Shown one piece after another: positions 1 to 53,905 of a DNA stretch of 53,905 nucleotides. The notes below the pieces were generated by a model that saw nothing but the letters and a program-made list of their open reading frames with translations, was not told the origin of the DNA and searched no databases. The position numbers and the translations under genes are program-made. The stretch is from a virus: the IMG/VR virus record IMGVR_UViG_3300042731_005590, positions 1 through 53,905 of that record, one strand, 5' to 3'. How positions within the stretch are numbered: position 1 is the first letter of the stretch; each line of letters opens with the position of its first letter.

Positions 1-69
1 CGAACTTTTTCTTATCTCCAACGATGTCGGACTTTACCTTGTATACCTCTGTCTTGGTGGGGTACTGCC
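1..69. repeat. 69-bp terminal direct repeat, left copy
   Basis: These 69 bases are identical to 53837-53905. A repeat this short, lying inside a coding gene, is what an assembler leaves when it closes a circular or circularly permuted molecule. The sulfotransferase reading frame continues unbroken when the two ends are merged. Confidence 0.97.
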
Positions 70-145
70 TGTCCATGATCCAACGCGCCGTGGTACCGGC
101 ACACTTCGGGATATGGATAAACATGATCACGTGGTTGTATAGCAT
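1..145 (-). CDS. Sulfotransferase, N-terminal part (gene crosses the contig join)
   Basis: This is the 5' part of the gene that continues at 53905-53232; the joined protein is 249 aa. The ATG at 145 follows AGGAGAGCGAG, the start context common in this phage. Residues 9-19 read FIHIPKCAGTT, the 5'-phosphosulfate (PAPS) binding loop of the Sulfotransfer_2-like family. The gene lies 142 bp downstream of the major capsid gene, behind a stem-loop, and heads a coupled cassette of sugar-modifying genes. From the family it should transfer sulfate from PAPS to a sugar or protein hydroxyl; the acceptor is not readable from sequence. Confidence 0.88.
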   Translation of the reverse strand, partial: MLYNHVIMFIHIPKCAGTTARWIMDRQYPTKTEVYKVKSDIVGDKKKF

Positions 146-173: not shown

Positions 174-267
174 CCACCAGTGGTGTTCTGGTGGTGAAGG
201 GCAGGAGAGCGTCTAACCCACCCCCTCGCCTTGAAAATAGGGGTGTCTGTACTGACCACCCCTATTT
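174..267 (-). terminator. Stem-loops behind the major capsid gene
   Basis: A perfect 11-bp inverted repeat (235-245 with 257-267, 11-nt loop) starts 21 bp beyond the capsid stop codon. On the minus strand its 3' arm ends in TATTTTC, a weak U-tract. A second, 7-bp hairpin (174-180 with 188-194) lies closer to the sulfotransferase start. Together they could be a leaky terminator that makes capsid messages outnumber those of the downstream cassette. Confidence 0.55.
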
Positions 268-287
268 CGCTCTCACGGGAACTGGGT

Positions 288-1766
288 TTACCAGTTCGAT
301 CCAACGTGCGTAGGCCAACAATCACCGTACAGATAATGCTCCGGCGTGGTTGTGGCACCACCGTCAACCTCATAGATACCACCACTGCCCGTGACATCCG
401 GGTACTGGTCGGGGCCAATCGCGTTGATGCAACAAACGTTCGTGATCCTCCCAGACAACTGAGGCATCAGCATACGAACGCGTGTCTTGGCAAGAACACG
501 CAGGTCCGCACAATACCCACCGGAAACGGTTCCGGCGATGGCGTAACGCCCACCGTCGGTCGACTTAACCCACGAGTTACCGGACAACTGCTTGAACACA
601 GTGTCGGCACGCGCCCCCGTTCGGTCAAAGTCCTGGTACTCGCCCCATACGATAGTACCCCCGTTTGGTGCACCGGGGAGAATGCGAGTGATGACGTATA
701 CCGTAGAACACCTGGCCGTGTCGTTCCCAACCGGTCGGTTGACAACGGTGATACCGTTGTCGAGAGTGACAGGATAGTCCTTGCCATCGACCGGCAAGAC
801 CCTTTGCTTGTATATCTTTTCAAGCCGCTTGGTTGCACTGTCGGCCAGTCCCACCATTGGGTTGTTCGTTCCAGACCAGTCGGCACATTGCAACCCATAC
901 GCACAAGCTACACTCTCGGCCACACAATCCCAAATCTGCGGACTCATCACGATGTCGATAATGGCAGTCTCGGGATCGAAACCGGCACCCTCGATCCTGG
1001 CACGAATCGCACGGACGATACCACGGATTTCGGATAGGATGGACGTGGTACCTGCAGCGCCCACGACTTGATTGTTGTGGTTCACAACGATAGAATCCAA
1101 GGCGTTACAGTCGATACCGGTCAATACGTCCTCTTTTCCGGTATTGATGAGCAGGTCGAAGCCGGTCGGATGCAGACGCGCACCGGCGTTTGCGGCAGGG
1201 TTTCCAGACCAAATATCCACACCGAGCACACGCCGCAAGTTGTACCCCACAGCGCCGATTTGCAAGGTGAGAGTGTTCTCGATCTGTTGTCCCTGGCGAA
1301 TAAGGACGTTCCCCATCGGGTCGGTGATGTTACCGTACATCACCATAGACGGGACGTTCTCATTTTCACGCAACCCGATCTCGTCATACTGCATCTCGTC
1401 TGTCATCTGGCAGACACGACCAAAACACGTGCTTTGGGCACAGCGGCGAATGACCGGCTTTCCACAGTCGCCACACGCAGTCGCCTGGTCGTCTCCTGTC
1501 GACCCGATGTAGGTGATAGATTCGACGATGGGGTGCAGGTCCATGGTACCCACCCAACGCAGCTTGGACATGTACCCGTAAGGACCAACCATGGCGTTGA
1601 TGAGGGCCGGATTGTGGGTACAGGTTCCGAACAGACCGCCACCTTGATAGATGTAGTCTGCGTTCGGCGTTCCCGTGGCTTTCAACACGGCACTCCTACC
1701 GCCAACGTCGGGCAGATAAGGAGCGATAGCCTTTGCGAGTCCTTGTAAAACAAATTCGTTTTCCAT
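288..1766 (-). CDS. Major capsid protein
   Basis: A 492-aa protein directly after the protease-scaffold gene, the usual place for the HK97-fold major capsid subunit. I chose the ATG at 1766 because TGGAGGAAAC lies just upstream; an in-frame upstream extension to 1868 would run back into the scaffold gene. Composition (many Gly/Ala/Asn, few Lys) and the C-terminal beta-rich region fit a capsid subunit, but I recognise the gene mainly by position and size. Residues 98-119 hold five cysteines (C98, C101, C109, C114, C119), with another at 49, which is unusual and could bind zinc or form crosslinks. An extended -10 promoter lies just upstream. Confidence 0.8.
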   Translation of the reverse strand: MENEFVLQGLAKAIAPYLPDVGGRSAVLKATGTPNADYIYQGGGLFGTCTHNPALINAMVGPYGYMSKLRWVGTMDLHPIVESITYIGSTGDDQATACGDCGKPVIRRCAQSTCFGRVCQMTDEMQYDEIGLRENENVPSMVMYGNITDPMGNVLIRQGQQIENTLTLQIGAVGYNLRRVLGVDIWSGNPAANAGARLHPTGFDLLINTGKEDVLTGIDCNALDSIVVNHNNQVVGAAGTTSILSEIRGIVRAIRARIEGAGFDPETAIIDIVMSPQIWDCVAESVACAYGLQCADWSGTNNPMVGLADSATKRLEKIYKQRVLPVDGKDYPVTLDNGITVVNRPVGNDTARCSTVYVITRILPGAPNGGTIVWGEYQDFDRTGARADTVFKQLSGNSWVKSTDGGRYAIAGTVSGGYCADLRVLAKTRVRMLMPQLSGRITNVCCINAIGPDQYPDVTGSGGIYEVDGGATTTPEHYLYGDCWPTHVGSNW

Positions 1767-3759: not shown

Positions 3760-4035
3760 TTAATAAAAGTAATCAGGATGGAAATAATACCCTGGATAAC
3801 ACCACGGATAACCGGGACCAAACACTTCATACAACCCATCATACAACCCATCACTGTATATATCGTCGTACAAATGTATCTCGCCGTATTCGTCATCGAC
3901 TACCAGTCCCATTTCTCCACATGGTACCCAGTTTAGCCACGTGTGCCTCATACCGCAATAAGCGCATTTCAAATCATCCGGCAATGGTGCCCCACACCCA
4001 AAGCATACCATGGCGACTACTTTTCCGCTCTCCAT
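3760..4035 (-). CDS. Small zinc-ribbon protein with tyrosine-rich tail
   Basis: 91 aa when started at the ATG at 4035, which has GGAGAG five bases upstream. Residues about 10-30 hold two CxxC pairs (CFGC and CAYC), a zinc ribbon. The C-terminal third is rich in Tyr, Gly, Asp and Pro and is partly encoded by a short DNA repeat (about 3825-3850). It overlaps the end of the MuF-like gene by 19 bp, so the two are probably translationally coupled. Function unknown; its place in the head module suggests a virion or assembly role. Confidence 0.6.
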   Translation of the reverse strand: MESGKVVAMVCFGCGAPLPDDLKCAYCGMRHTWLNWVPCGEMGLVVDDEYGEIHLYDDIYSDGLYDGLYEVFGPGYPWCYPGYYFHPDYFY

Positions 4036-4694
4036 TTTTGCTCTCCATTTTTGCTCTCCACTACGTACGGGTTCCACAAAGCGCCACGTTCCAAACATCC
4101 CGTCGGCCTACCGTACCGGTCCTTGCCGGGACTCGTACAATGCTCTGCCTCAAAATCGAGCACCCACCTGTAAGACTTGACACCGATCTTTTCCCAATGG
4201 CACCTGCAGTTCGTCAAGCATATTGTCGTCCCGTCGCCGGGATGGGCGGGTAACTCATCCCAATCTCTTGCCCTGGCATACGCCTTCGAGAATGCTTGAC
4301 GGGCAGAGCTGAAATAGAGCTGTGCCCGGTAAGCAATTTGGGCCTCGGTCAAATTGCCACTCTTTATATCGTTGGCGAATGCACCAAGGTACTGATACTG
4401 CGCACGCAACATGCCGCCTATCGAACCCCAGTCCGCCTGTGTCATGTTATCCACGCCACCCTTACCGAGCAAGTATTGTTGTATATACAACGATTTTATC
4501 TCCTCGCGCATCAAGAGTTCCCAGTCCTGAAGCTTGAGTTGATCGGTGGCAAGAAGATGGGCAAGCTGCTTTGCTATTGGTAAGGTTCTATCGAGATTTT
4601 CACCCGATATTTTAACAATGTCCTTGGCCTTGATGAACCGTCCCGTTGTCGTGTCGTGATAGTTGTGTGATCCTGTGTTGTATATCCAAGGCAT
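4017..4694 (-). CDS. MuF-like minor head protein (head morphogenesis)
   Basis: 225 aa, directly downstream of the portal. The C-terminal half contains LPAHPGDGTT followed by CLTNCRCHWE, the His/Cys signature of the Mu gpF/SPP1 gp7 family, which travels with the portal into the procapsid and may contact DNA. The N-terminal half is helical. Overlap with the small zinc-ribbon gene and tight spacing to the portal support an operon. The ribosome site before 4694 is weak, so coupling to the portal gene is likely. Confidence 0.8.
   Translation of the reverse strand: MPWIYNTGSHNYHDTTTGRFIKAKDIVKISGENLDRTLPIAKQLAHLLATDQLKLQDWELLMREEIKSLYIQQYLLGKGGVDNMTQADWGSIGGMLRAQYQYLGAFANDIKSGNLTEAQIAYRAQLYFSSARQAFSKAYARARDWDELPAHPGDGTTICLTNCRCHWEKIGVKSYRWVLDFEAEHCTSPGKDRYGRPTGCLERGALWNPYVVESKNGEQKWRAEK
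4027..4060 (-). repeat. Tandem 13-bp repeat made of ribosome-binding-site/start units
   Basis: On the minus strand TGGAGAGCAAAAA is repeated at 13-bp spacing (two full copies and a third partial). Each unit carries an SD-like GGAGAG, and an ATG forms at each junction (4048 and 4035). Only the ATG at 4035 opens the zinc-ribbon frame; because 13 is not a multiple of 3, the other is out of frame. Confidence 0.75.
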
Positions 4695-23973: not shown

Positions 23974-24753
23974 ATGGTTAAGCCTGTACGTAAGTCCACC
24001 ACTACAGTATTCTTTCCGTTCATCGGCCACGAAACAAACAAGGCCCAGAGATGTCTAGGCGCAGGTGCTACAGAAGACACACACGTTAAACTTGGAACGT
24101 CATGGCATAGATCGTGGGGATTGTACGTGTGGTGGAATTATAACAGATATGGGGTGCCATGTGTATGGGGAGAGTATCTAGTCGATCAAGCTATACAAAT
24201 CGGCATAGGTGGGAACAGTCCGTACGTTCTCGGGTTCAATGAACCCGACCGTGAGGACCAGGCCAACTTGACGCCTTTAGAAGCAGCACCGTTATGGCAT
24301 ACACTGACAGAAGCACACACGGAACGCTTGTTCGCTTCACCGGCCATTGTCGAAAGCGACACGTGGCTGACAGATTTTAGGACAGAGTACATAGGGATGT
24401 ATGGAGAACCACCACGGATGGACGTTATAGACATCCATTGCTATGCAGACGACCCGGTGTCCGACCTGGCGCGTGTCGATTATGCCCTTGCAAGAGCAAG
24501 TGATTGGGCAATCAACGAAGTATGGGTATCAGAGTTTCAGTATGGGCACAGGCAAGAACAAGGAGCGGCAGATAGACTGGTCGAGTTTTTTGATGGATTA
24601 GAGTCGAGATTGCCGGTGACAAAGATATTTTGGTTCTCTGTACATATCCCATCACCACTCCCACCCTGGTACCCTAGCGACTGGCTTGCACCAAACTTAA
24701 TCGACACGGATGGAGAGCTGACAGAACTAGGACAGGTGTACAGTAGTTTATGA
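23974..24753 (+). CDS. GH128-like glycoside hydrolase (Glyco_hydro_cc)
   Basis: 259 aa, no signal peptide. VLGFNEPDREDQANLTPLEA carries the acid-base Glu of the Asl1/GH128 clan, and VWVSEFQYG carries the second Glu expected at the end of a later strand. DVIDIHCYAD lies between. The fold is a TIM barrel; known GH128 enzymes cut beta-1,3-glucan. It is followed at once by a small membrane gene, so lysis is one reading and degradation of a host capsule or storage glucan is another. Both catalytic Glu are present. Confidence 0.8.
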   Translation: MVKPVRKSTTTVFFPFIGHETNKAQRCLGAGATEDTHVKLGTSWHRSWGLYVWWNYNRYGVPCVWGEYLVDQAIQIGIGGNSPYVLGFNEPDREDQANLTPLEAAPLWHTLTEAHTERLFASPAIVESDTWLTDFRTEYIGMYGEPPRMDVIDIHCYADDPVSDLARVDYALARASDWAINEVWVSEFQYGHRQEQGAADRLVEFFDGLESRLPVTKIFWFSVHIPSPLPPWYPSDWLAPNLIDTDGELTELGQVYSSL

Positions 24754-27396: not shown

Positions 27397-27441
27397 GACA
27401 CGCACGGCCATAAAAAGAAAACTAAACAAGGAGTTGAAAAA

Positions 27442-28362
27442 ATGGACTGGAAAAAGACAAAGGAAGTATTGGAAAAACTTCATGGAATAACGTCATTACC
27501 AGATGAGTCAGATGGGTGGGAACATGGGATTGATCTCACGGAGACCGATTTCAGAGGAGCCTACCTCGCAGGAATTTACCTCAAAGGAGCCGATCTCAGA
27601 GGGGCCGATTTCATAAGAGCCGATCTCACAGGAGCCTACCTCAGAGGAGCCGATCTCAGAGAAGCCGATCTAACAGGGGCCGATCTCAGGGGGGTCGATC
27701 TCACAAGGGCCAATCTCGCAAAAACCAATCTCACAGGAGCCGATCTAAGAGGAGCCTACCTCACAAGGGCTGATCTCACAGGAGCCGATCTCAGAAGAGC
27801 CTACCTCGGAGGAGTCGATCTCAGAGAAGCCGATCTAACAGGGGCCGATCTCAGGGGGGTCGATCTCACAGGAGCCGATCTCGCAAAAACCAATCTCGCA
27901 GAAACCAACCTCAAAGGAGTCGATCTCACAGGGGCCAATCTAACAGGAGCCGATCTCAAGGGGGTCGATCTAAGAGAAGCCGATCTCGGAGGAGCCAGTC
28001 TCGCAGGAGCTATCCTCAAAGGAGCCAACCTCAGATGGGCTTACCTCGGAGGGGTCGATCTCAGAGAAGCCGATCTCATGGGGGCTACTATAGAATGGAA
28101 CAGTCATGATGTCATCGCTGAACTATTGCGCCGCCGCGCCAACGATGATATAGAAAAGCGCAAGGTTGCCGGACTGATTCTGGTGAGTCGAGACTGGTGT
28201 TGGGGAGACTTCTTGAAATTAGATGACCCGTTGCAGGAGTGGGCCATCAATACGTTGGCTGAATATGTCACAGACGGTGACAATGCTTATGCCATCTTGA
28301 AGAGGTTTTCAAACTTGAAGAGGCTTTGGATGAAGAAGAACCGGACAAATGAGGACAAATAA
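27442..28362 (+). CDS. Pentapeptide-repeat protein 2
   Basis: 306 aa. A 30-residue start, then about 36 pentapeptides (residues about 31-215), then a 90-residue helical domain rich in Arg and Lys (VIAELLRRRAND; LKRFSNLKRLWMKKNR). Repeats are built from GCC GAT CTC ACA GGA units, a different codon set from the upstream gene, so the two arrays expanded independently. SD AAGGAG. The helical C-terminus could bind a partner; target unknown. Confidence 0.85.
   Translation: MDWKKTKEVLEKLHGITSLPDESDGWEHGIDLTETDFRGAYLAGIYLKGADLRGADFIRADLTGAYLRGADLREADLTGADLRGVDLTRANLAKTNLTGADLRGAYLTRADLTGADLRRAYLGGVDLREADLTGADLRGVDLTGADLAKTNLAETNLKGVDLTGANLTGADLKGVDLREADLGGASLAGAILKGANLRWAYLGGVDLREADLMGATIEWNSHDVIAELLRRRANDDIEKRKVAGLILVSRDWCWGDFLKLDDPLQEWAINTLAEYVTDGDNAYAILKRFSNLKRLWMKKNRTNEDK
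27651..27870 (+). repeat. 55-bp exact duplication within the second pentapeptide gene
   Basis: 27651-27705 and 27816-27870 are identical over 55 bp. The offset is 165 bp, exactly 11 units of 15 bp, so the array grew by in-register recombination that keeps the reading frame. Confidence 0.85.
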
Positions 28363-31053: not shown

Positions 31054-31893
31054 ATGAAAAAACAAGAATGGGCACAAAGGCAACCGGAAGCAGACGAGAT
31101 TTGCAGTTATACCGGGGGCTGTGACTTCTTGCGCGAAGCAAGAGCGCAACTCGCCGCCGCCATCGCCCGTGCCGAAGCCACCGAGGCTGACGCTAAACGA
31201 CTGGCGGGTCAAGTGACAGAATTGGAAGGGGCACTGCAAGAAATGCAAGGCGTAGCCCGGTCAAAGTTGCCCTGTGATAGAGTTGGTACAATGGAATGGC
31301 AATTCTCACATAAAATTGACAACCTCGCGGCGATGGCTACAGCGGCACTTGACGCCCTCGCCGCCCACGATGCTATCCAAGGGAGAGCAAAAGATACCCC
31401 CACGACACCCGATCTGATTATATTCGATGCAGACGGGACACTAAGACGATGCACGGTGAAGGGTCAACCGTGCCCTAACGCTCCCGGCCAATGGGAACTC
31501 ATGCCGAACGTCAAAGAGACGATTGCAAAGCTTCAAAACACCGTATTTGCCATCGTGAGCAATCAGGCCGGGATAGCTTACGGTTATCTTACTGAGGCAA
31601 TGGCTACAAGGCTCCTATACGACCTGGGCATTGAAGCCTTTGGGAGTCGCAATTGCTTCAGTGTTGACCTTTGCCCCCATGCGGTAGACGCAGGTTGCGA
31701 TTGCCGCAAACCAAAACCCCTGATGCTACAACGGGCCATGAATCTCACCCGGTGCCCACCAGGACGAACGCTCTACGTGGGTGATATGGAGAGTGACAGA
31801 CGGGCGGCTGAAAACGCAGGATGCGCGTTCATGTGGGCCAAGGATTTCTTTGGATGGAAAGCTTGGATGGAAAGTGACACATCTAGTCAGTAA
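31054..31893 (+). CDS. Coiled-coil / HAD phosphatase fusion (GmhB/HisB-N type)
   Basis: 279 aa with AAAGGAGCAAGGG upstream. Residues 1-110 are Ala-rich helices (ARAEATEADAKRLAGQV) like the preceding protein. Residues about 118-275 are a HAD domain: LIIFDADGTL (nucleophile Asp and acid-base Asp), SNQAGIAYG (motif II Ser), CPHAVDAGCDCRKPKP (Zn-binding C-H-C-C loop plus motif III Lys) and YVGDMESDRRAA (acidic motif). This is the layout of D-glycero-D-manno-heptose 1,7-bisphosphate phosphatases and polynucleotide phosphatases. All catalytic residues are present; it could dephosphorylate a sugar or a DNA 3' end. Confidence 0.82.
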   Translation: MKKQEWAQRQPEADEICSYTGGCDFLREARAQLAAAIARAEATEADAKRLAGQVTELEGALQEMQGVARSKLPCDRVGTMEWQFSHKIDNLAAMATAALDALAAHDAIQGRAKDTPTTPDLIIFDADGTLRRCTVKGQPCPNAPGQWELMPNVKETIAKLQNTVFAIVSNQAGIAYGYLTEAMATRLLYDLGIEAFGSRNCFSVDLCPHAVDAGCDCRKPKPLMLQRAMNLTRCPPGRTLYVGDMESDRRAAENAGCAFMWAKDFFGWKAWMESDTSSQ

Positions 31894-31909
31894 TAAAGGA
31901 GTAGACGCA

Positions 31910-32797
31910 GTGAAGAAGTTAAACGCTTGGCAAAAACGCCGACGATCAAGCGGATGGTCGGGTGGATACATTGAATGGACAGAAGGAAAAACCGCTTTCT
32001 TGTCTGTAGTATTCTCTTGGCTACTTCCAAAAGCCATGGAGCGTGCACGTTATTATAGCTTTATGGGATATGACGTGCGCGTCGGTGGTCCAGCCGTCGA
32101 TCTAAATTCTGGGTATTTTGGGGCATTTGCTAAAGAGGGCGGTTCTATTCCCGGTGTGCTACAGCGCCACAACCAAAAGGCTACAAGAGCGACCAAGGGG
32201 TGTGTTAGGCGTTGCCCGTTTTGTGCTGTGTGGCGTACAGAGGGAAAGTTACAAGAACTTAGCGACGACCTGTGGCCGGTTTTGCCCCTTGAGTGCTCGA
32301 ACAATTTGCTTGCTGCCAGCAATACGTTTTTTGACCACGTTATAGATCGCTACATTGCCAGCGATGTTGTTGATATAGACTTCAACCAAGGACTTGATGC
32401 GCGCAAGCTGACAGAACATCACGCGGATAAATTGGTTGAGTTGCACAGGGCGAAAAAGCTCAAGCGGGTGCGTCTTGCCTGGGACAATATAGAGACTGAA
32501 ACAGAGTTTAGGGAAGCGCACAAGACATTGAGGAAAGCGGGAATGCCGAAGGGTAAAATCTCTGTTTATGTGCTGATCGGCTTTAAGGATACCCCAGAGG
32601 ACGCGCTATATCGCCTAAGTGAAGTCTGGGCTTTAGGGGCGTGGCCTAACCCGATGCGCTATCAGCCGCTAGACGCAAAGAAACGCAATGAGTTTGTTGG
32701 GGAACATTGGACAGATTCAGAACTAAAGCGATACTGCAAATATTGGAGCAATCTCAGGTATTTGTCTGGTGTACCATTTGATGAATACAGGATATGA
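31910..32797 (+). CDS. Radical SAM protein
   Basis: 295 aa from GTG 31910, chosen because AAAGGAG lies upstream; the frame is open further but overlaps the HAD gene. GCVRRCPFCAVW supplies the CxxxCxxC ligands of the [4Fe-4S] cluster at residues 98, 102 and 105. VDIDFNQGLDARKL and KLKRVRLAWDN fit barrel strands 3-4, and ISVYVLIGFKDTPEDALYRL fits a later strand. The N-terminal SVVFSWLLPKA and DVRVGGPAVDL look like a preceding small domain. Substrate unknown. Confidence 0.85.
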   Translation: MKKLNAWQKRRRSSGWSGGYIEWTEGKTAFLSVVFSWLLPKAMERARYYSFMGYDVRVGGPAVDLNSGYFGAFAKEGGSIPGVLQRHNQKATRATKGCVRRCPFCAVWRTEGKLQELSDDLWPVLPLECSNNLLAASNTFFDHVIDRYIASDVVDIDFNQGLDARKLTEHHADKLVELHRAKKLKRVRLAWDNIETETEFREAHKTLRKAGMPKGKISVYVLIGFKDTPEDALYRLSEVWALGAWPNPMRYQPLDAKKRNEFVGEHWTDSELKRYCKYWSNLRYLSGVPFDEYRI

Positions 32798-44707: not shown

Positions 44708-46198
44708 TTATGCCTGTGAGCTGAAACGACCGATTAGGCCGGTTCCTGCAACAAGTTCGCCGCACACGAACGCTTGGTTCATGTCCACGACGAATAGGCC
44801 GTTCAAGCCATTGTTTGGTAACGCTATCATGTTCTCTGGGTTCCACGTGACACCACCGTCTAAGGAACGGTACACGGTACCGTTAGACCCGGCGTCGTTG
44901 TGGACGAGATACATACCGTACTCGGTGTACGGGTCTTTCTTGATCTTGGCGATGTTCCCGATTGCTGGAATGTTGTCGGAGATTAACTCCCACGAATCAC
45001 CACCATCGAACGAACGATAAACCTCACCACCGGACGTACCGACGAACACAAAACCAAGATAATTGACCTCTACAGAAACGAGGTTTACCCCGGCTTTCGG
45101 TCCATCGACTTGGTTCCAGTCTTCCGAGTCTGCCAGCTTGACCAGGACAACGTTCGAGTCTCCCACGGCATAACCACGCGTGCCGTAGAACGTGATGTCG
45201 TTCAAATCCTCTAGCGTCTCGTTTCCATTCTCGGATACGTCCCACGTGTTCCCGACGTTCTTCGAGCGATAGATACGTCCGTTGTCAGCAGCAGCGTAGA
45301 CGGTACCGATAAAGTCCATGGCGAACGCATTGATCCCGAGTCCGCCATGACCGGCGCTTGCAGCCGGGTTCACGTTCGTCCACACAGTACCACCTGTCAC
45401 GCGGGTACCGTCAGAGTATGCGATCTCTGGGTAAGTGGCCGGTGATGGGCCACCCCCTATTAGAACACGGTGTGTATAGCCTCCGGTCGGGACCGCCATA
45501 ACACATTGGGCATTGCGCCCGAGTGTGTTAAATGGGTGTGTCCCGGTTGGATTCCAGTTTGACCCATAGTCCGTCGTCTTCAGCACCGTGTCACCGTATA
45601 CCCCGATGTAGTCAGTGTCCAAGACCGCATAGCCAACGTGACCCTTGCCACGGTAGATGCTACACTTGCTGTAGCATTGCGCAGGTAGAAACGAGATGTC
45701 GTTGACCGCACGCGTGACAGATATTTTCTGGCGTTGTGCAGTCAGTTTCCTGATGAACGACCAGGCTATAGCACTCGCTGACCCGGATGTCTCAGAGCGT
45801 TTGTTGTCTCCTGGTTTAACGATGGCCATCTCGTTGATCTCTCCACTTGAGAACAACGATTGGATCAAGACAATGGATATTTCATAGTTTTCTTCCACCG
45901 CACGCAAACCACCGCACGACATATTCACGCGCAGGTTGAACCGGCAGTTAAGTTCTACAAGTGCATTGTACACTTCCATCAAAGGCCGGGACAGGTTCGC
46001 TGTGACAAGTGGCAAGTCGCCCTCTATGAGATCGACCGCTTTGAACTGGCCCACGTATGCTGATGGCATGTAGTCAGGTTCCTGTGCCCTGCGTGGGATC
46101 GTGACAGTACCTACCCCGGTCGCGGTCAAGAGAGAGTAAGGTTGCAGGGGGTCAACCTGATAAAACGCTTGACCTTTCCCTGTGTGTTGAGTTTCCAT
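44708..46198 (-). CDS. Major tail tube protein fused to a BNR-type beta-propeller
   Basis: 496 aa with AGGAGG upstream. Residues 1-165 resemble a tail tube subunit (GVGTVTIPRRAQEPDYMPSA start, then ATANLSRPLMEVY-type helix). Residues about 190-490 are propeller blades with Asp-box signatures: KTTDYGSNW, RSKNVGNTW, RSFDGGDSW, RSLDGGVTW, each closing a blade with a final Trp. Such YCF48/sialidase-like blades bind surface sugars or proteins. Position just before the chaperones supports tube identity. The fusion would display propellers along the whole tail. Confidence 0.7.
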   Translation of the reverse strand: METQHTGKGQAFYQVDPLQPYSLLTATGVGTVTIPRRAQEPDYMPSAYVGQFKAVDLIEGDLPLVTANLSRPLMEVYNALVELNCRFNLRVNMSCGGLRAVEENYEISIVLIQSLFSSGEINEMAIVKPGDNKRSETSGSASAIAWSFIRKLTAQRQKISVTRAVNDISFLPAQCYSKCSIYRGKGHVGYAVLDTDYIGVYGDTVLKTTDYGSNWNPTGTHPFNTLGRNAQCVMAVPTGGYTHRVLIGGGPSPATYPEIAYSDGTRVTGGTVWTNVNPAASAGHGGLGINAFAMDFIGTVYAAADNGRIYRSKNVGNTWDVSENGNETLEDLNDITFYGTRGYAVGDSNVVLVKLADSEDWNQVDGPKAGVNLVSVEVNYLGFVFVGTSGGEVYRSFDGGDSWELISDNIPAIGNIAKIKKDPYTEYGMYLVHNDAGSNGTVYRSLDGGVTWNPENMIALPNNGLNGLFVVDMNQAFVCGELVAGTGLIGRFSSQA

Positions 46199-46216: not shown

Positions 46217-47440
46217 TTAAACATTTCCAACCCCAACGATAGGATTAAGGCTTTCGACTACGTTTGCGGCAAAGATACTGCCACGTGTCACGTAGCCAAA
46301 ATACTGTTGTGCCATAGCCGCATTGAGGTTGTCTATTGGCATTTCCTCGGTCCACTGTGCGTATAGTTGCCGGGTCTGGGAGCAACCACAAATGTTGTCG
46401 GGGATGTCTGCCAGGGACAGGGCCACGATAGCCTTTGCTAATCGTGGTTCCATCCAGTCGGCCTCGATCCACTTTGCAAACCCGTTACGCTGGCGATGAT
46501 ACCCGGCTAAGTACCATAGGCGAACAGCATGGGGGGTGTCTGTGAATGATGCCGGTATGAACGATCCAGATGAATAAGTGGCCGGTGAAACCTTGACCTC
46601 ACCAAGCCGCTTATCCGTAACTTGCATGCACGCTGCTTGGCACGACTCCGCACACGCACCTTCCCCGCACGACCCGACCCCCGTACGGTACACGATCTGT
46701 GCTTGTTGGGATGGGTCGGTGTAGCGACGATATACATTGACATAAGACACGAAATTAGTGTCCAAGTCTTGCCGTATATCGTTGTCGTTCAACCACAGGT
46801 CTGGGCGCACGAACTGGCAGCGGTTCCCAGAGATTGTCACGGCACCCGTAGTTGGATTGAGTACGATTTTCAGCGGTCGAATACGTTGCGTATCGTCCAT
46901 GCCGAATAAATAAAAATCAAGGTATGGTTCAGGGTAGTACACGGCCAGTTCGTACCAGGACGCACCTGCCGTGGCAAGTTGCGCGGCTGTGATAGTAATC
47001 GTCGCCGTGTCGTTCACACCATCTCCATCACGATCGGTGTAAACCACGGGAGCGAATAAAGCGACCTCGGTGAACGCCTCACGTCCGGGTTCCAGAACGT
47101 AGCCATTGTTTGTGGTCAGCGTGGGTAGGATCAAACTCGCACTCGATCGGGGGTATATCCACAGAACCTCGTCGGAGTTTACATAAGTTGGAGCAATCGG
47201 GAAAGCGAGTGCGTGTGATAACATCTCCTCTGCAGTTGCAATAGCAGAAGCTATGTCCTCACGTCCAACGATTAGACCTTTCTCATAGTCATACCACCCG
47301 TACTGGACCCAGGTAGCACGGCAATGTGTTGGATATGGCTTTTCAGGGTTTACAACTTGGTTCCAGGCACACGGGTTGATCGCCATGTGCCAAGCCCATA
47401 GGTCAAGAGGTAAAAGTGTTGGAGTCGTTGCTCGTGCCAT
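46217..47440 (-). CDS. Structural protein, connector or head-tail adaptor candidate
   Basis: 407 aa. N-terminal 60 residues contain several Trp and Cys; TDRDGDGVNDTA (about residue 134) is a calcium-loop-like DxDxDG motif; near residue 255 GSCGEGACAESCQAACMQ is a Cys cluster. It directly precedes the tail tube gene, where neck and adaptor proteins lie. No family recognised. Confidence 0.5.
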   Translation of the reverse strand: MARATTPTLLPLDLWAWHMAINPCAWNQVVNPEKPYPTHCRATWVQYGWYDYEKGLIVGREDIASAIATAEEMLSHALAFPIAPTYVNSDEVLWIYPRSSASLILPTLTTNNGYVLEPGREAFTEVALFAPVVYTDRDGDGVNDTATITITAAQLATAGASWYELAVYYPEPYLDFYLFGMDDTQRIRPLKIVLNPTTGAVTISGNRCQFVRPDLWLNDNDIRQDLDTNFVSYVNVYRRYTDPSQQAQIVYRTGVGSCGEGACAESCQAACMQVTDKRLGEVKVSPATYSSGSFIPASFTDTPHAVRLWYLAGYHRQRNGFAKWIEADWMEPRLAKAIVALSLADIPDNICGCSQTRQLYAQWTEEMPIDNLNAAMAQQYFGYVTRGSIFAANVVESLNPIVGVGNV

Positions 47441-47857
47441 CTAGTCATCATTCCTTCGCTCTCCTGCATCAGTCGTAGCACGCCAGATGGTCCTACTTCC
47501 CCCCGATAGGATCATCGCCCCCCCACTAAGAGCAAACGGGATCAAGAACAACCATGCTCTAGTAAGACAAATTCCCGTGACGATGATGCCCACCCACAAA
47601 GACACACACCAGAGGCATGATAATTGCGAGTGTACAATTTCAAAGAAAATGTCATGTTCGAGATAGAACTCACCATGGTCTTCCGCGCATTCTTTCATTG
47701 TCGGCAACGATCTATGGTAGACATAATCTCTAAGATCGGCTACAACACCGTACAACCCACGCTCATACCACAGTATAACAGAGATTCGCCAGGTTGACAA
47801 TAGGCCAACGGCAAGCCTCAAAAATAGGAACAGAACTTCAGTGTTTGAGTCTTGCAT
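47441..47857 (-). CDS. DUF1360-like membrane protein
   Basis: 138 aa. LLSTWRISVILWYERGLYGV and LSCLWCVSLWVGIIV match the DUF1360 pattern (a Thr-Trp-Arg motif with Glu, then the Cys-x-x-Cys-x-Ser-x-Trp helix); about three hydrophobic segments. It overlaps the FkbM gene by 20 bp. These proteins often occur in phages, sometimes next to tail genes, and are of unknown function. Confidence 0.7.
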   Translation of the reverse strand: MQDSNTEVLFLFLRLAVGLLSTWRISVILWYERGLYGVVADLRDYVYHRSLPTMKECAEDHGEFYLEHDIFFEIVHSQLSCLWCVSLWVGIIVTGICLTRAWLFLIPFALSGGAMILSGGSRTIWRATTDAGERRNDD

Positions 47858-48623
47858 AGATGTCTCCCCATGATCCCTTGCCGGATTCGGTCAAGTTCGA
47901 TTCCATCACACGCATAAGGGTGCTTCCATCGACCCAATCTTGTAGGACCATGTCACCCCGGTTATCCAGAACGTAGTTATATTCATACGACCCGATTGTG
48001 ACTAGGTGCCTGATTGCCGCCCAGTTGTTCCAAAGCCAGTCTTTGTGAAATTCCATGTTCAAAGCAGGTACAGGATGATGGAGAGTGGATATGACTTCCC
48101 CATCATAGCCCTCAACGTCAACTTTGATGAAGCGTGGCAACCCGAACTTCTCAACAAGATCATCAAGCGTGATAGCCTGAACCACCTTTTTTACCACGGA
48201 CTTTGAGTACAAATGCTTGTGTGCAGACTGCTTCACCCACTTCTGCGAAGCTGTTGTGACGATCCAATGAGGACTGCCAATGTTCGGCATGGTGAGCGTG
48301 ACTTCCGGGTCGGGGGATACAGCTATCGGGAGCAACATTACGTGGTCATCACCGGCAAACATATAATGGAACTCTTTTACGCGGTCCGGTACAATCTGAT
48401 GTAACGGTTCAACAGCGATAACGTTAGCGCCAAGCTGGCGAAAAGCCCACGTCATGCCACCACGGTTCGCGCCGATGTCAAATACCAGTTCGTCCTTGCC
48501 AACGAACTGGGCAAACAGTTCGGGCTTGAACTTGACTTGGTGGGAGGCAATGTACGCCTCCCACCACCCGGACACGGTGTACTTACCATCGTGTGTTATT
48601 TCATTGCCGTCTACCGTCTTCAC
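47838..48623 (-). CDS. FkbM-family methyltransferase
   Basis: 261 aa from GTG 48623 (AGGT upstream, one base after the previous stop). ELVFDIGANRGGMTWAFRQL is the SAM-binding glycine loop, NVIAVEPLHQIVP the acidic motif II, ITLDDLVEKFGLPRFIKVDV the FkbM-specific strand, and ALNMEFHK the last strand. Family enzymes O-methylate sugars or related hydroxyls. In this cassette it probably methylates a glycan made by the neighbouring glycosyltransferases. Confidence 0.9.
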   Translation of the reverse strand: MKTVDGNEITHDGKYTVSGWWEAYIASHQVKFKPELFAQFVGKDELVFDIGANRGGMTWAFRQLGANVIAVEPLHQIVPDRVKEFHYMFAGDDHVMLLPIAVSPDPEVTLTMPNIGSPHWIVTTASQKWVKQSAHKHLYSKSVVKKVVQAITLDDLVEKFGLPRFIKVDVEGYDGEVISTLHHPVPALNMEFHKDWLWNNWAAIRHLVTIGSYEYNYVLDNRGDMVLQDWVDGSTLMRVMESNLTESGKGSWGDIYARLKH

Positions 48624-48624
48624 G

Positions 48625-49911
48625 TTACTTACCTGATATGATCGACTGCAAGTGCGCAATGACAGTCTTACGGTTCTTCCCGCCTGATTCCATCTCAAGC
48701 ATCGCCTCCGCCTCGGTTGGGGAGACAGGAATTGCGATAAGCTGTTTGACGGTGAAGTTGGCCGGGTCCGGCGCGTAAGACTCCACAGGGGATACCTGAT
48801 CGACTGCCAGATTTGGATTCATGGCAACCGTCTTAGTCGGCTTGGCCGGTTTTTTCGGGGCCGGTTTCGTAGCTGGCGCTGCTTGCCTACGTGCCGGTTT
48901 CGCCGGTTGTCTCTTGGGGGGTATGACCCTGAAGTCACGCCCCTGGTGAAGTCTCGTGAACCACGGCGCATCCTGTTTGTACACACCAGGCACAGCATTT
49001 GGCCCTTCGACCAAAGCACCCGGACCTGGAATATAGTAAGTGGTGCCGGATGGTTTAGCGGTAGCGTTAAAGCTACCATTTAACCGTCCGGTATATTCGA
49101 TCTGTACCTTCTCTGAATCCACGGGAACGACACGCGACTTTGATATAGGCTTTCTTGCCTTCTTGGGTTCGCTACAGCATCCCATTGTAAACCTCCCGTT
49201 ATAAGATTCCGCATGCAAATCACGCATACGGTTTTTTGCTTCAAGCTCACGGACAGCGCCGTGCGCCTTGATGTTCGCCAATCTACCGGCTTGATTGCGC
49301 CTGTACCAGTACAAAGTGTCCGACACGTGAAACCCGCAAACGCCCAGTTCTCCAAGTGTGATAAATAACTCCCAGTCTTCGTATCCGATGTCCATGTGTG
49401 GGTTCCATCCACCCGCACGTTTGATGTCTGATTTTTTCATCAGGCACCCCACGCACATAAAGTTGTGATGGAGCAAGACATTAAAATTGTACTCGGGGGC
49501 ATGGTATACCTGTTGGTAATCCCGACCGAACATGACCAAATCAGAATACACAATACCCTGTTCCTTACCACCGTGGTACCACGCCCACAAGAATTTCTCA
49601 ACAGCGTTTGGAGCTAATTTGTCATCCGCGTCTAGAGGGAGAACAAGATCGCAGCGTGCAATCTCAACGGCAAGGTTGCGTGCGCCGGATACACCCTCTA
49701 CACCGTACTTTTCCGCCTTTGCGAAACCGACACCGTGCCAGTTTTTCACTTCGGACTCAACGTCAATTGAGGAGTGATCATCCACGACAATTACCTCAAA
49801 GACATCCGGCATTGTCTGCTCTGAAACAGAACGTAACGCCTCACCAAGCCACAATACGTGATTGGTTGACGTGGCACGGACCGGAACGATGATTGAAATT
49901 TGATGATTCAT
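48625..49911 (-). CDS. Family 2 glycosyltransferase fused to phage-type C-terminal domains
   Basis: 428 aa. Residues 1-235 are a GT-A glycosyltransferase: ISIIVPVRATS start, VIVVDDHSSID, and LPLDADDKLAPNAVEKFL with the DxD metal site; GYEDWELFITLGELG is the late ED motif. Residues about 250-330 (MGCCSEPKK, then VQIEYTGRLNGSF and SGTTYYIPGPG) look like a small phage structural domain, then a Pro/Ala/Lys linker (about 335-365), then a C-terminal helical pair (NFTVKQLIAI; GKNRKTVIAHLQSI) like an HeH/SAP module. The fusion may tether the enzyme to the virion or assembly site. Overlaps the epimerase stop by ATGA. Confidence 0.82.
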   Translation of the reverse strand: MNHQISIIVPVRATSTNHVLWLGEALRSVSEQTMPDVFEVIVVDDHSSIDVESEVKNWHGVGFAKAEKYGVEGVSGARNLAVEIARCDLVLPLDADDKLAPNAVEKFLWAWYHGGKEQGIVYSDLVMFGRDYQQVYHAPEYNFNVLLHHNFMCVGCLMKKSDIKRAGGWNPHMDIGYEDWELFITLGELGVCGFHVSDTLYWYRRNQAGRLANIKAHGAVRELEAKNRMRDLHAESYNGRFTMGCCSEPKKARKPISKSRVVPVDSEKVQIEYTGRLNGSFNATAKPSGTTYYIPGPGALVEGPNAVPGVYKQDAPWFTRLHQGRDFRVIPPKRQPAKPARRQAAPATKPAPKKPAKPTKTVAMNPNLAVDQVSPVESYAPDPANFTVKQLIAIPVSPTEAEAMLEMESGGKNRKTVIAHLQSIISGK

Positions 49912-50930
49912 GAGATAAGCCCTTCTTCTTTCTGCCTGATATAGTCCTCGACCATGTCACTCAACGTATCCACCAATGGCGTGTCCGGGCATGTACCGAT
50001 CAAACTAATGAGCTTCGTCGTGTCTGCAGCACGGCGTTCGTACCCATCCGGGCGCGATGTATCAAACGTTACACGTACATCCCGTTTCCCGGCAACACGG
50101 GCTATCGTGAGCGCCAATTCCCTGATGGACACTTCTGTCTTGTGCCCTATGTTCACCACGTCAAACTGGAAACTCTCGTCACCGACCAATCTCTCAACGA
50201 GTAGCACCAAGCATTTGGCTATGTCCCTCGCGTCGACCAGACTCCGCGTTTGATTCCCAGACCCCCACACGGCCAATGGGTTATCACCTTCCATCACACG
50301 CCTGATAAGTGCCGGTGCGACGTGGGACGTTTCATTATCATAATAGTCACGCGGACCGAACGCGTTAAAGAAACGAACGACCAGCGTAGGGATACCATAC
50401 TCTTCGGCCAGATAACGTGCTTGCTGCTCACCTACCCACTTTGCCACACCATACCCAAAGTTGGTCGGTTCTGGATCGCACACGGTAACTGAGGACTCCG
50501 GTGTTGGGACGGGTGCGTCGTGTGGATATACACAGGCAGTAGACACCCACACGAGGAACTTTGGCTTGTGCTCCATAAGCAATCTACTCAAATTAGTGTT
50601 TATACACAAATTTGAATTCATCATATCGAGATGGTTGAACATGTTATATTGTATGCCGGTCACTTTGGCGGCTAGGTGAAATAAAATCGAGCCGCACGTG
50701 TCCAGATGTCTGACTATCCCCTCCTCCATGTTAGCGTAAAACATGTTAGCACGAACGTCCACATTATTAAGCTTACCACGAGACAAATTGTCTATGATGA
50801 GAGGAGGATCAACACACACACCACTCTCCATCATTTTACGCTCAATGAGGAGATCGACCAAATGTGAACCGATAAACCCGGCACCACCAGTTACAATCAC
50901 GTTCTCCCACTTCCAGTCGAAGTTTTCCAT
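49908..50930 (-). CDS. NAD-dependent epimerase/dehydratase (SDR family)
   Basis: 340 aa from ATG 50930 (GGGGG upstream). VTGGAGFIGSHLVDLL is the Rossmann loop; WVSTACVYP holds the catalytic Thr/Ser; NFGYGVAKWVGE holds the YxxxK pair; VRFFNAFGPRDYY is the family substrate strand. The layout is that of UDP-glucose 4-epimerases and GDP-fucose synthase. It likely makes the nucleotide-sugar donor used by the adjacent glycosyltransferases. All catalytic residues are present. Confidence 0.92.
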   Translation of the reverse strand: MENFDWKWENVIVTGGAGFIGSHLVDLLIERKMMESGVCVDPPLIIDNLSRGKLNNVDVRANMFYANMEEGIVRHLDTCGSILFHLAAKVTGIQYNMFNHLDMMNSNLCINTNLSRLLMEHKPKFLVWVSTACVYPHDAPVPTPESSVTVCDPEPTNFGYGVAKWVGEQQARYLAEEYGIPTLVVRFFNAFGPRDYYDNETSHVAPALIRRVMEGDNPLAVWGSGNQTRSLVDARDIAKCLVLLVERLVGDESFQFDVVNIGHKTEVSIRELALTIARVAGKRDVRVTFDTSRPDGYERRAADTTKLISLIGTCPDTPLVDTLSDMVEDYIRQKEEGLIS

Positions 50931-50932
50931 CT

Positions 50933-52693
50933 CTACCCCCACTTTCTCATTTGGTCTATCATAGTTAACAGCGCGTCTATCCTGTTATTCCATCTGTGTC
51001 TGTCACTCACCAGTTTTTGTCCGTTTCTGCCGATTCTTTCCCTCTCGTCATCGTGACCCAAATAGTATTCGATCTTTTCCTTCATCTCATCGAACGTGTT
51101 CCACTCGATACACGTCTCACCGTCTACGAAACCGTGTGAGCGCATACCGGCAAAACGTTGCACGAGTGCCGGACAACCTGAAGCACAGATATTGTACAGA
51201 CGATCGGAAGAGTAACCCCACAAGCTTGACGACTGGGAAATAGATAGCGCCATCTTGGATCGTGAGTATATTTTGGCGTTCTCCGCATGGCGTTCGCCGG
51301 TATAGGTTGCCTTCAGGCCGATCCGCTCCCAGTGCGTCCCAAATAAGCCGAGTCTCAATTTCACACCACCAAGTTTCATCTCGGATATGGTTTTAACAGA
51401 CTGTTCCCTATTTTCTGCCTCGGGGAACTTTCCATGCCCGTATAGAGCGCCCATGAAGGTTACGTCGTAGTCAAACTCGGTGTCACGATCTACAAAGTAG
51501 TCATCCTCAACACCGATAGGCCAATATGCGACACCGACACCATTGGCTATGTACTTTGGGAACAAGGTAGGTGACACGACACACTGCAAGTGAACGGCTT
51601 TTGCGATCTCGAAGTGAAATTGATTGAGTTTAGGATGAGTGTCACCATCAAAATTGACAATGAACGTGAATGGAAGCAATTTGCGTAACTGGCGGACCGT
51701 GCCGGGAGTGACGTTGTTCTCATGCTGTGCCTGTAGGATAACAAGGTCCGGGCGCTCGGATTGGCACAAATCAAGAAACGCCTTTTGGTATCCCTCGCGC
51801 CCACCGGCTTGCCTCAACAGTGCATTTTGGTTAACCTGCTTCGATTCTCCTAACGTGCCCCACAGGTTTATCATAGTCTTTCTCTGGGGATCGTTGGCGT
51901 TCATCATACCCTTGAAACGGAGTGTCTTCAGGTTTCCCCTTGAGGCTTTCTCTATCACCGTGTCAGCCGGTGTGACGGACGGGATGATATGATTGCGGTC
52001 CGGCAGTCTCCCGGTCCATGCCTTGGAAAATATCGCCAGGTCCGGGTGGATAGACCCTTTCTCACGGGCCAGCTTCCATGGGTCATCAGAGTTTATGGCC
52101 CTCAACTGATCTTGCGCGATATGATCTACTATCGCGCAACCGTCGACGTGCAAGGTCGGGTATCCTAACTCCCATAAACGGAGGGACAAGCGTGTGTCGC
52201 CGCCGTATGTCCGCATACCTTCATCACCCCACCACCCGACATAATCACCAAGCCAGCGCGGCGTGAGGCAGCATTGACCGTACATCAAGCCGTACGCAGA
52301 GGACAAGGGCTGGCGTTTCGCGTCCGTAGATTTCACATTGTTCTTAAACGCCACCTGGCCGCAATAAGGATTTTTCTCCAAGAAGCGGTACGCACGATAT
52401 ATCGTGTCACCCACAACCTCTATGTCATCGTTGAGGATGCAAACATATCTCCCCGTTGCAGCTTCGCACCCCGCGTTGAATGCGGCGATACCACCAAGAA
52501 GCTCCCCTTGTTCAATGATCGTGACATCATCCTGCGACTTGCACCATTCAATCGTCCCGTCGTCTGAGCCGCCGTCCACCAAGATAATTTCGTACGACAA
52601 ATCGGCCACGGACTTACGCACAGACTCGACCATCTGCACCAAATAGGGATGTAAGCGATTGTAAGTACCTGAAACTACAGACACTTCGATCAT
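50933..52693 (-). CDS. Double glycosyltransferase: GT2 domain plus GT4/CgeB-like domain
   Basis: 586 aa. Residues 1-215 are GT-A: VSVVSGTYNR, EIILVDGGSDDGT, VCILNDDIEV with a DD metal site, and GGDTRLSLRLWELGYP. Residues about 270-580 are a second transferase of the CgeB/GT4 type with two Rossmann halves: DLVILQAQHENN, CVVSPTLFPKYI and a late ALSISQSSSLWGYSSDRLYN, CASGCPALVQ and MRSHGFVDGETCIEW. The second half normally has a nucleotide-sugar site around the final Ser/Arg loop, present here. Two transferases in one chain could build a disaccharide. Start overlaps the methyltransferase stop by ATGA. Confidence 0.85.
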   Translation of the reverse strand: MIEVSVVSGTYNRLHPYLVQMVESVRKSVADLSYEIILVDGGSDDGTIEWCKSQDDVTIIEQGELLGGIAAFNAGCEAATGRYVCILNDDIEVVGDTIYRAYRFLEKNPYCGQVAFKNNVKSTDAKRQPLSSAYGLMYGQCCLTPRWLGDYVGWWGDEGMRTYGGDTRLSLRLWELGYPTLHVDGCAIVDHIAQDQLRAINSDDPWKLAREKGSIHPDLAIFSKAWTGRLPDRNHIIPSVTPADTVIEKASRGNLKTLRFKGMMNANDPQRKTMINLWGTLGESKQVNQNALLRQAGGREGYQKAFLDLCQSERPDLVILQAQHENNVTPGTVRQLRKLLPFTFIVNFDGDTHPKLNQFHFEIAKAVHLQCVVSPTLFPKYIANGVGVAYWPIGVEDDYFVDRDTEFDYDVTFMGALYGHGKFPEAENREQSVKTISEMKLGGVKLRLGLFGTHWERIGLKATYTGERHAENAKIYSRSKMALSISQSSSLWGYSSDRLYNICASGCPALVQRFAGMRSHGFVDGETCIEWNTFDEMKEKIEYYLGHDDERERIGRNGQKLVSDRHRWNNRIDALLTMIDQMRKWG

Positions 52694-53235
52694 AACGGTT
52701 TCCTTGCGGTGACGTTCAGGCTAATCAATGAGCGCGCGATACGGCCAACGGACCAATCACGGTAGTTGCACCCTTCACCAAACATGCCGCGTATCCATTG
52801 CCCCGCATCGTACCGTTTGACTTCGTTGAACCCGGCCTTGATTAGCTCGTCTTGCAACGTGAAAAAGTCCCAAACCGAGTAGTGGATATTGTCTGGATAC
52901 TCTTGACCACCATTGATCGCGTACCTGATTGACTTCAACGTAGCCCCGTTGTACGCGTTTTCGTAGATGTCGACCAAGGCGACAAAGTCTGGTACTGCCA
53001 GTCTCAGGACGCCACCGGGGATGAGTACGCGCCTCCACTCACGCAATGCTGGCTGGACCTCGGCATATCGCAAGTGCTCGATCCCGTGACAATAGTATAT
53101 TTCCTGAACGGAGTTGTTGCTGATAGTGGGTAATGATTGTGCGAGGGATACGATGTCCGGCTTGGTTTCCGGTCGGACATCTATGTGGACAAAACCTGGC
53201 AAGCGTTTTATTCCACAACCTAAATGTAATTTCAT
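52690..53235 (-). CDS. SAM-dependent methyltransferase (class I)
   Basis: 181 aa with AGGAGAGCAAAA upstream. MKLHLGCGIKRLPGFVHIDV is the SAM loop and motif II Asp; EIYYCHGIEHLR and WRRVLIPGGVLRLAVPDF match the small type 11 methyltransferases usually found in polysaccharide clusters. It overlaps the sulfotransferase stop and the double glycosyltransferase start by 4 bp each. Probable role: methylating a sugar of the same pathway. Confidence 0.88.
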   Translation of the reverse strand: MKLHLGCGIKRLPGFVHIDVRPETKPDIVSLAQSLPTISNNSVQEIYYCHGIEHLRYAEVQPALREWRRVLIPGGVLRLAVPDFVALVDIYENAYNGATLKSIRYAINGGQEYPDNIHYSVWDFFTLQDELIKAGFNEVKRYDAGQWIRGMFGEGCNYRDWSVGRIARSLISLNVTARKPL

Positions 53236-53905
53236 TTTTGCTCTCCTAGAGCTAACGTTCTTGCAAAATCGTATAGCTCATAATCCAGTATATTGGATTT
53301 CCTTATTTTGTCAATATCGGAAGAGGATACCTCGGGCTTGTAACGGGACACGTTCTGGTTTCGATAGACGGGAATACGCCACCCAAACGTCTTACGCATG
53401 CAACCTAGAAACGTGTCGAACTCATCAGAGATACCCACGCACCCAAAAGTGCGCAAGTTGTCCTTCGCCAGTTTAAGGTGTTCAGCGGTCACTCCCCCGA
53501 ACGGTATCTCCATGTCTCTCCACGGTTCCTGTTTACCGTCACGCATAGTAAAGTGATCGACACCACACAATTGTCTCACCATGGCATTGTCCGTGGTGCA
53601 CGTTACACCGCTCGTGACAAACTCAACGGGCGACATCTTTCCCGCAACGGGTCCGAGATAATGACCTTTCTGTGATATTTTGACGTATGAGTAAAGTGAC
53701 AAGACACGTTGCACGGGATCGCGCAATATGGTAACGTATGAGAACTTTTGACCTTTGTTCAATGATGCATGCATGCCATAACAATAATGGCCAAACACAG
53801 CAGCAAGCAAGCGTTTCTTATCGGCAGGAAGAAGATCGAACTTTTTCTTATCTCCAACGATGTCGGACTTTACCTTGTATACCTCTGTCTTGGTGGGGTA
53901 CTGCC
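53232..53905 (-). CDS. Sulfotransferase, main part (gene crosses the contig join)
   Basis: Continues the protein begun at 145-1; here the frame is open to the window end because of the terminal repeat. In the joined 249-aa protein, YVTILRDPVQRVLSLYSYV gives the 3'-phosphate site of PAPS (R87, D88, S95), and FGCVGISDEFDTFLGCM with RNQNVSRY match the end of the Sulfotransfer_2 fold. Both PAPS-binding motifs are intact, so activity is plausible. The stop overlaps the methyltransferase start (ATGA), so the two are coupled. Confidence 0.9.
   Translation of the reverse strand, partial: QYPTKTEVYKVKSDIVGDKKKFDLLPADKKRLLAAVFGHYCYGMHASLNKGQKFSYVTILRDPVQRVLSLYSYVKISQKGHYLGPVAGKMSPVEFVTSGVTCTTDNAMVRQLCGVDHFTMRDGKQEPWRDMEIPFGGVTAEHLKLAKDNLRTFGCVGISDEFDTFLGCMRKTFGWRIPVYRNQNVSRYKPEVSSSDIDKIRKSNILDYELYDFARTLALGEQK
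53837..53905. repeat. 69-bp terminal direct repeat, right copy
   Basis: Identical to bases 1-69; see the left copy. It marks the closure point of the circular assembly rather than a recognised packaging repeat. Confidence 0.97.

Follow-up and report, generated by a model that had tools for sequence, protein, structure and literature searches.

The virus record IMGVR_UViG_3300042731_005590 of IMG/VR, 53,905 nucleotides long and referred to over that whole length as the window, carries between its major capsid protein (MCP) and neck genes a cassette of six genes, encoding a sulfotransferase, a class I methyltransferase, a double glycosyltransferase (GT2-GT4), a nucleotide-sugar enzyme, a further GT2 glycosyltransferase with a C-terminal domain ('GT2C') and an FkbM-family methyltransferase. 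The slot between capsid and neck genes that holds this cassette is a lineage-wide feature, larger than one odd cassette, and is, apart from a conserved domain, hypervariable, with an abundance of glycan enzymes. The best reading of the cassette, which we hold to be probable, is that a late, soluble pathway glycosylates the virion; the lineage survey suggests an uncultured phage lineage that makes a sugar coat of its own and swaps it.

The slot between capsid and neck genes across the lineage

As the first relatives had been found by way of a glycosyltransferase, the survey was redone with the capsid-family alignment alone against IMG/VR and GTDB, yielding 68 loci that carry the MCP family, 24 of them readable as far as the gene of a small membrane protein (DUF1360), the neck or the tail tube. 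GT2C or its C-terminal domain, marked by a Cys motif, was scored between MCP and this boundary in 23 of the 24, in slots of 1 to 12 genes; the 24th locus, L302, was unscored, with the domain present as a standalone protein. Taken together, all 24 slots hold the Cys-motif domain, fused to a GT2 C-terminus in 22 and standing alone in L300 and L302, near-duplicates among the 24 (L235 and L236, for example) making the independent cases slightly fewer. GT2C was not detected at some loci with 10 kb downstream that are unreadable to the boundary, including L253, which opens with sugar-type genes as judged by eye from the starts of the proteins. Recurrence of the slot in dozens of relatives places the arrangement far beyond chance, and GT2C is taken to be its conserved anchor gene. 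The window itself matches the lineage families for MCP, neck, tube, DUF1360, portal and GT2 with the Cys-motif domain.

Single-protein scans of viral contigs with the GT2-GT4 protein, terminase, MCP and GT2C of the window gave no confirmed relative. A broad alignment of the minor head protein led to L085 and L144, both of which match the portal and GT2 proteins of the window, L085 additionally matching its sulfotransferase, neck and tail tube. L085 is the closest cassette relative, with the order MCP, GT4, sulfotransferase, GT2C (here a double GT2), DUF1360, neck and tube. Searching with the aligned GT2 proteins of the window, L085 and L144 reached many further loci, most of which, where capsid, neck or tube homologues are present, read MCP, variable genes, GT2C, an optional DUF1360, neck and tube. 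A 17-sequence MCP alignment proved too diverse as a query, and a later MCP alignment (A6) was used instead. Five of the capsid relatives lie on GTDB contigs (L303-L307) from bins labelled Altiarchaeales, Methanothrix, Nitrosotalea, Anaerolineae and Moraniibacteriota, a mixture best explained by misbinned viral contigs; a host assignment from GTDB bins was dropped, the five matches being spread over these bins.

The content of the slots was assessed by family matches in 136 proteins, with GT2C anchors excluded, near-duplicates removed and any one protein able to match several families: GT2 (23), Epimerase (21) and Polysacc_synt_2 (15); methyltransferase families with 11 (Methyltransf_24), 11 (Methyltransf_23), 9, 8 and 7 matches; DegT aminotransferase (4), rhamnosyl O-methyltransferase (3) and Sulfotransfer_1 (3); and PIG-L, formyltransferase, GHMP kinase and hexapeptide transferase (2 each). 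L171 and L179 are 93% identical in MCP, 82% in neck and 88% in tube, yet six of nine slot genes are unmatched between them, and L205 and L238 (MCP 65% and tube 62% identical) have none of nine slot genes in common. Turnover is not uniform, as pairs such as L278 and L298 keep most of their slot genes (7/7 in this case). A count of transmembrane-like segments in 243 slot proteins found two proteins with two segments and none with more, so that no flippase or polymerase is visible.

The conserved domain also occurs unfused, as a standalone protein in L300, L302, L179, L180, L171 and L214. The standalone proteins of L300 (135 residues) and L302 (136 residues) show the Cys motif and beta domain of the GT2C C-terminus and are, in each locus, the only gene between MCP and DUF1360; a hidden Markov model (HMM) built from standalone copies only matches 20 proteins of more than 400 residues. 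DUF1360 is kept in both loci, whose slots have no glycan genes, and is thus a member of the head-neck module, not of the glycan pathway. Modelling of the GT2C C-terminal domain from the L154 homologue (54 sequences, mean pLDDT 81.5) gives a beta domain of five strands, followed by a disordered linker and a tail of three helices. The single match below 0.001 in BFVD is a 140-residue protein of halovirus HSTV-2, with a poor overall superposition, which was looked for without success in the first 30 kb; small proteins of Bacillus phages matched more weakly. A tandem pair of standalone Cys-motif copies (74-83 residues) has also been observed in the interval between GT2C and neck of L179 (10622-11079), L171 (11687-12144) and L180 (11687-12132).

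The cassette of the window and its neighbours

Each of the six genes is encoded on the minus strand and their order agrees with the preliminary description; a Pfam search of each protein bears out the families assigned there. Listed from the capsid side, with short-chain dehydrogenase/reductase abbreviated as SDR and S-adenosylmethionine as SAM, the features are:

1..69, no strand: terminal direct repeat, identical to 53837-53905
1..145, minus strand: sulfotransferase, N-terminal part (MLYNHVIMFIHIPKCAGTT...), from the 69-bp repeat and a start check
53232..53905, minus strand: sulfotransferase, main part, continuing over the join to 145 (Sulfotransfer_2, 1.2e-8)
52690..53235, minus strand: class I SAM methyltransferase, 181 residues (Methyltransf_11, 3.5e-5; PHROG 6636, 2e-7)
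50933..52693, minus strand: GT2-GT4 double glycosyltransferase, 586 residues (Glycos_transf_2/PF00535, 1e-22; Glyco_trans_1_2/PF13524, 7e-22)
49908..50930, minus strand: SDR nucleotide-sugar enzyme, 340 residues from ATG (Epimerase, 3e-43; NF047922, 1.1e-42; PDB 7ll6, 2e-38)
48625..49911, minus strand: GT2C, a GT2 with a long C-terminal extension (Glycos_transf_2/PF00535, 1e-14)
48643..49188, minus strand: Cys-motif beta domain and helical tail of GT2C, residues about 242-423 (HMM built without the window, 4.8e-18)
47838..48623, minus strand: FkbM-family methyltransferase, 261 residues from GTG (Methyltransf_21/PF05050, 2e-10; fkbM_fam TIGR01444, 4.4e-19)

The ATGA overlaps at 53232-53235, 52690-52693 and 49908-49911 are all real, and the near-touching junctions are likewise confirmed, with the SDR ATG at 50930 two bases past the GT2-GT4 stop and the FkbM GTG at 48623 one past the GT2 stop. 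The 69-bp repeat is the end overlap of a circular record, the circle measuring 53,836 bp. A sulfotransferase read across this join is a real gene, with the correction that the literal join falsely duplicates 23 residues; removal of the repeat leaves a protein of 249 residues, in which both motifs for binding 3'-phosphoadenosine-5'-phosphosulfate (PAPS), HIPKCAGTT and RDPVQRVLSLY, are intact. Its Sulfotransfer_2 score is 35.9 bits against a Pfam cut-off of 22; a weak match to heparan sulfate sulfotransferases is found, with the motifs aligned to heparan sulfate 6-O-sulfotransferase, and a homologue occupies the same slot in L085.

The SDR is closest to GDP-L-fucose synthase in both the NCBIfam search and a PDB sequence search, and alignment with 1bsv and 7ll6 shows the Cys, the Tyr-x3-Lys and the SHV(A)PAL His retained, with Ser replaced by Thr. 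Its NF047922 score of 146.5 bits lies under the NCBIfam equivalog cut-off of 500, and it is therefore named only a GDP-fucose-synthase-like SDR. No partner dehydratase was recognised in the cassette, so that the substrate of the SDR would be supplied by the host. FkbM scores above the cut-offs of both Pfam (PF05050, 41.4 bits against 22.7) and NCBIfam (TIGR01444, 69.3 against 37.7). No transmembrane-like segment was detected in the GT2-GT4 protein, GT2C, FkbM or the sulfotransferase of the window.

Neighbouring features are given below; the family HMMs for MCP, neck, tube, portal and DUF1360 were built without the window.

235..268, minus strand: strong hairpin (AAATAGGGGTG..CACCCCTATTTT) in the MCP-sulfotransferase gap (window 140-300: minimum free energy -68.4 kcal/mol, z = -4.3)
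288..1766, minus strand: MCP, HK97 fold (family HMM 3.1e-84; AlphaFold model and Foldseek)
4017..4694, minus strand: minor head protein, MuF-like by position (homologue of gp013 of Synechococcus phage S-CBS4)
4739..6598, minus strand: portal protein (family HMM 7.7e-115; function from position)
44708..46198, minus strand: tail tube protein with BNR/Ycf48-like beta-propeller (PSII_BNR 3e-8; family HMM 3.1e-79; tube function from position)
46217..47440, minus strand: neck (head-tail connector) protein (family HMM 1.1e-93; alignment of relatives; function from position)
47441..47857, minus strand: DUF1360 small membrane protein, 138 residues, closing the slot (family HMM 1.1e-17; three transmembrane-like segments)

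The placement of the cassette between MCP and the neck and tail genes is upheld by the MCP, neck and tube calls, all of which match families built without the window; the earlier wording that the cassette lies upstream of the neck is refined, in that the DUF1360 gene, which overlaps FkbM by 20 bases, intervenes and the neck follows. The AlphaFold model of the MCP (alignment of 67 sequences, pLDDT 81, pTM 0.81) gives 282 Foldseek matches below 0.001 against solved HK97-fold capsids, phage capsids reaching down to 7e-11. A protease/scaffold gene upstream of MCP (1798-3177) is assigned by position, and a lineage-family HMM built without the window gave no match to it. The gap of ~142 bp between MCP and sulfotransferase contains the hairpin, a possible attenuator; a scan for hairpins past the MCP gene in relatives was not discriminating, and the hairpin is reported for the window only. 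The tube family of the relatives aligns along the BNR/Ycf48-like beta-propeller of the tail tube (44708-46198, minus strand), a candidate glycan carrier.

Probable virion glycosylation and rival explanations

Late position, cytoplasmic enzymes, a lack of steps that use a lipid carrier and the fusion of a transferase to a domain of the head region together lead to the reading of the cassette as a virion glycosylation pathway. The scheme that we infer, covering sugar identity, virion attachment, docking and benefit, treats the cassette as what would be the window phage's version of a hypervariable glycan island in the late head-assembly operon. During assembly, the SDR would take a host precursor and make or complete a GDP-sugar, probably one resembling GDP-fucose; a short oligosaccharide would be put together in the cytoplasm by the soluble enzymes GT2-GT4 and GT2; and the two methyltransferases and the sulfotransferase would cap or decorate it with host SAM and PAPS. 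The glycan would go straight onto a virion protein, the capsid or the BNR-bearing tail tube being the likeliest acceptor. The last transferase would probably be held at the head, its invariant C-terminal domain serving to dock the enzyme on the nascent particle. The benefit may lie in an altered exterior of the virion, comparable to serotype switching.

A methylated, possibly sulfated glycan put on a virion protein had been proposed at the outset, and this is partly supported: the slot, its hypervariability, the absence of membrane or lipid-carrier machinery and the fusion of GT2 to the Cys-motif domain favour it, the linkage to the virion being a prediction from sequence. The head-module GT4 of the S-CBS4-type lineage and the precedent of the mycobacteriophages, both described below, also speak for it. 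Several points weigh against it. The virion glycan and its substrate are predicted from gene content; a late-operon position can signify late timing only; and modifiers of host polysaccharide can draw on the same enzyme families. The hairpin past the MCP gene may uncouple expression of the cassette from that of the capsid. That the C-terminal domain serves for docking is guesswork, and its fold has no significant match in the PDB; a kinship with Staley_38, which is encoded immediately past the presumed capsid gene and equals in length one of the small Bacillus phage proteins matched in BFVD, was dropped, the profile comparison not being significant. A more specific proposal, of a serotype-like capsid glycan locus in which a hypervariable MCP-neck island would supply a clade-specific, methylated and sometimes sulfated coat through a head-docked transferase and would be swapped between close relatives like O-antigen loci, is put forward tentatively, at rather below an even chance.

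Enzyme families of this kind are common to O-antigen and capsule loci, the GT2 domains are tagged in PHROGs as 'GtrB-like O-antigen conversion', nucleotide-sugar genes of groundwater phages have been interpreted as auxiliary genes for the host surface (PMC12911398), and a Gratiaviridae glycosyltransferase has been taken for a host-wall modifier (PMC8008677). The cassette might, in the same manner, remodel the host surface polysaccharide late in infection, for superinfection exclusion or progeny release, like serotype conversion, the position on the capsid side then being a convenient late promoter. This is considered unlikely, as no GtrA flippase, membrane-anchored GtrB or Wzx/Wzy-like multi-pass protein is present in the window cassette or the 243 slot proteins, the MCP-neck position is kept over highly diverged phages, and relatives whose slots have no glycan genes carry the domain of the anchor transferase by itself in their head region.

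The large gene turnover between close relatives, together with occasional HNH genes in the slots and the large genes in L281 and L248 that were not recognised as glycan genes, would also suit an island that is a parking place for horizontally acquired moron genes of mixed function, its sugar theme reflecting abundance in host genomes and not a single pathway. Against this explanation, which seems to us decidedly improbable, glycan families dominate the 136 slot proteins, the GT2C anchor is nearly invariant and the cassette genes of the window are translationally coupled. Virus glycosyltransferases that hypermodify DNA with glycans have been described (Pyle et al. 2024, as reported in PMC12619734), and it is conceivable, at very long odds, that those of the cassette hypermodify phage DNA bases against host nucleases; the cassette genes, however, lie in the late structural operon, a scan of ten early-region proteins returned helicase, ATPase, SprT, glycosidase, HAD and radical-SAM proteins and no base hydroxymethylase, and the sugar dehydratases, methyltransferases and sulfotransferases of the slots better fit a glycan pathway.

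Nucleotide-sugar genes of phages recovered from metagenomes are generally interpreted as auxiliary genes acting on the host surface; a conserved head-operon slot with hypervariable sugar genes suggests that, in one lineage at least, they may coat the virus. If virion glycosylation is true, the slot would be a genetic locus for virion 'serotype' and would explain differences in sugar genes between close relatives, with L300 and L302 offering relatives with a glycan-free slot for comparison. The fusion of GT2 to the conserved domain points to a testable way of steering a cytoplasmic glycosyltransferase to an assembling capsid.

Known systems and other features of the window

Knowledge of glycosylated phage virions comes from a small number of cultured actinophages, and the possibility is rarely raised for other phages; no description of a capsid-adjacent glycan island in phages was found among the open-access papers searched. 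The absence of a standard phage module with this set, as claimed in the preliminary description, holds for the exact set of six, whereas the slot is a regular feature of the phage's own lineage. Mycobacteriophages Che8, Corndog and Myrna bear glycans on capsid and tail-tube proteins, as far as the available accounts describe them (PMC12363180, PMC12619734; Freeman et al. 2023, through papers citing it), and have phage-encoded soluble glycosyltransferases in common with the window, whose own transferases have no transmembrane-like segment. These accounts indicate one or two transferases per phage, in contrast to six genes including a sugar-making SDR, a sulfotransferase and two methyltransferases; unlike the mycobacteriophages as portrayed there, the window belongs to a lineage across which slot content turns over, and has a transferase fused to a head-region domain. 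No mycobacteriophage was among the phage matches of the window's GT2 proteins, no direct comparison having been made with Che8 gp110 or Corndog gp38. The nearest parallel in scale is provided by the glycosylation clusters of Megavirinae, with 6 to 33 genes, clade-specific sugars and virions that carry glycan on their surface (Notaro et al. 2022, PMC10117803). Clusters of nucleotide-sugar and glycosyltransferase genes with clade-specific content are common to both; Megavirinae are, however, giant amoeba viruses with an unrelated particle, and their glycan chemistry has been measured, that of the window being predicted.

Synechococcus phage S-CBS4, matched through its gp013 by the window minor head protein, likewise has a glycan cassette among its head genes, comprising the gp014 glycosyltransferase, gp015 galactosyltransferase and gp016 methyltransferase, and the minor head protein family is common to both; its cassette is flanked by the minor head protein and the protease instead of following MCP, and its GT4 is not detectably related to that of the window. 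When the aligned pair of minor head protein and gp013 served as the query, 80 IMG/VR loci (L003-L082) were retrieved. A GT4 of the gp014 family lies within 3.5 kb in all 61 S-CBS4-type loci with at least 1.5 kb downstream, and a further recognised glycan-type enzyme is present in 40 of the 53 with at least 3 kb; an independent Pfam search found FkbM domains in 8 of 50 of the records concerned, in every case a short way downstream of the minor head protein. The conserved GT4 and variable glycan genes of this lineage are located between minor head protein and protease. These loci are judged to be a separate lineage with the glycan cassette placed elsewhere in the head module, and the idea of the window cassette as a copy of that of S-CBS4 was rejected, the GT4 genes being without detectable sequence relation and differently positioned.

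Gtr serotype-conversion systems are membrane-bound and lipid-linked. The GT2 domain is common to Gtr cassettes and the window, and the membrane features of Gtr are absent from the window cassette. None of the sulfotransferase, MCP, portal and terminase of the window had a match in cultured phages by tblastn.

Several features of the window lie outside the cassette. At 8308-8677 (minus strand), the open reading frame of the terminase large subunit (6929-9025) contains a low-complexity stretch (CCCCCFLYIYIYKNNNNNNNNN) and ~120 unfamiliar residues near its N-terminal half, for which an insertion, an intein remnant or an assembly artefact are candidates. A protein with a glycosyl hydrolase catalytic core (23974-24753, plus strand; PF11790, 1.5e-26) is a possible lysis or depolymerase enzyme. 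Two adjoining proteins at 26473-28362 (plus strand) consist mostly of pentapeptide repeats with the pattern A[D/N]LxX, and at 31054-32797 (plus strand) a gene for a HAD phosphatase (PNK3P-like) overlaps a weakly radical-SAM-like gene by ~110 bases.

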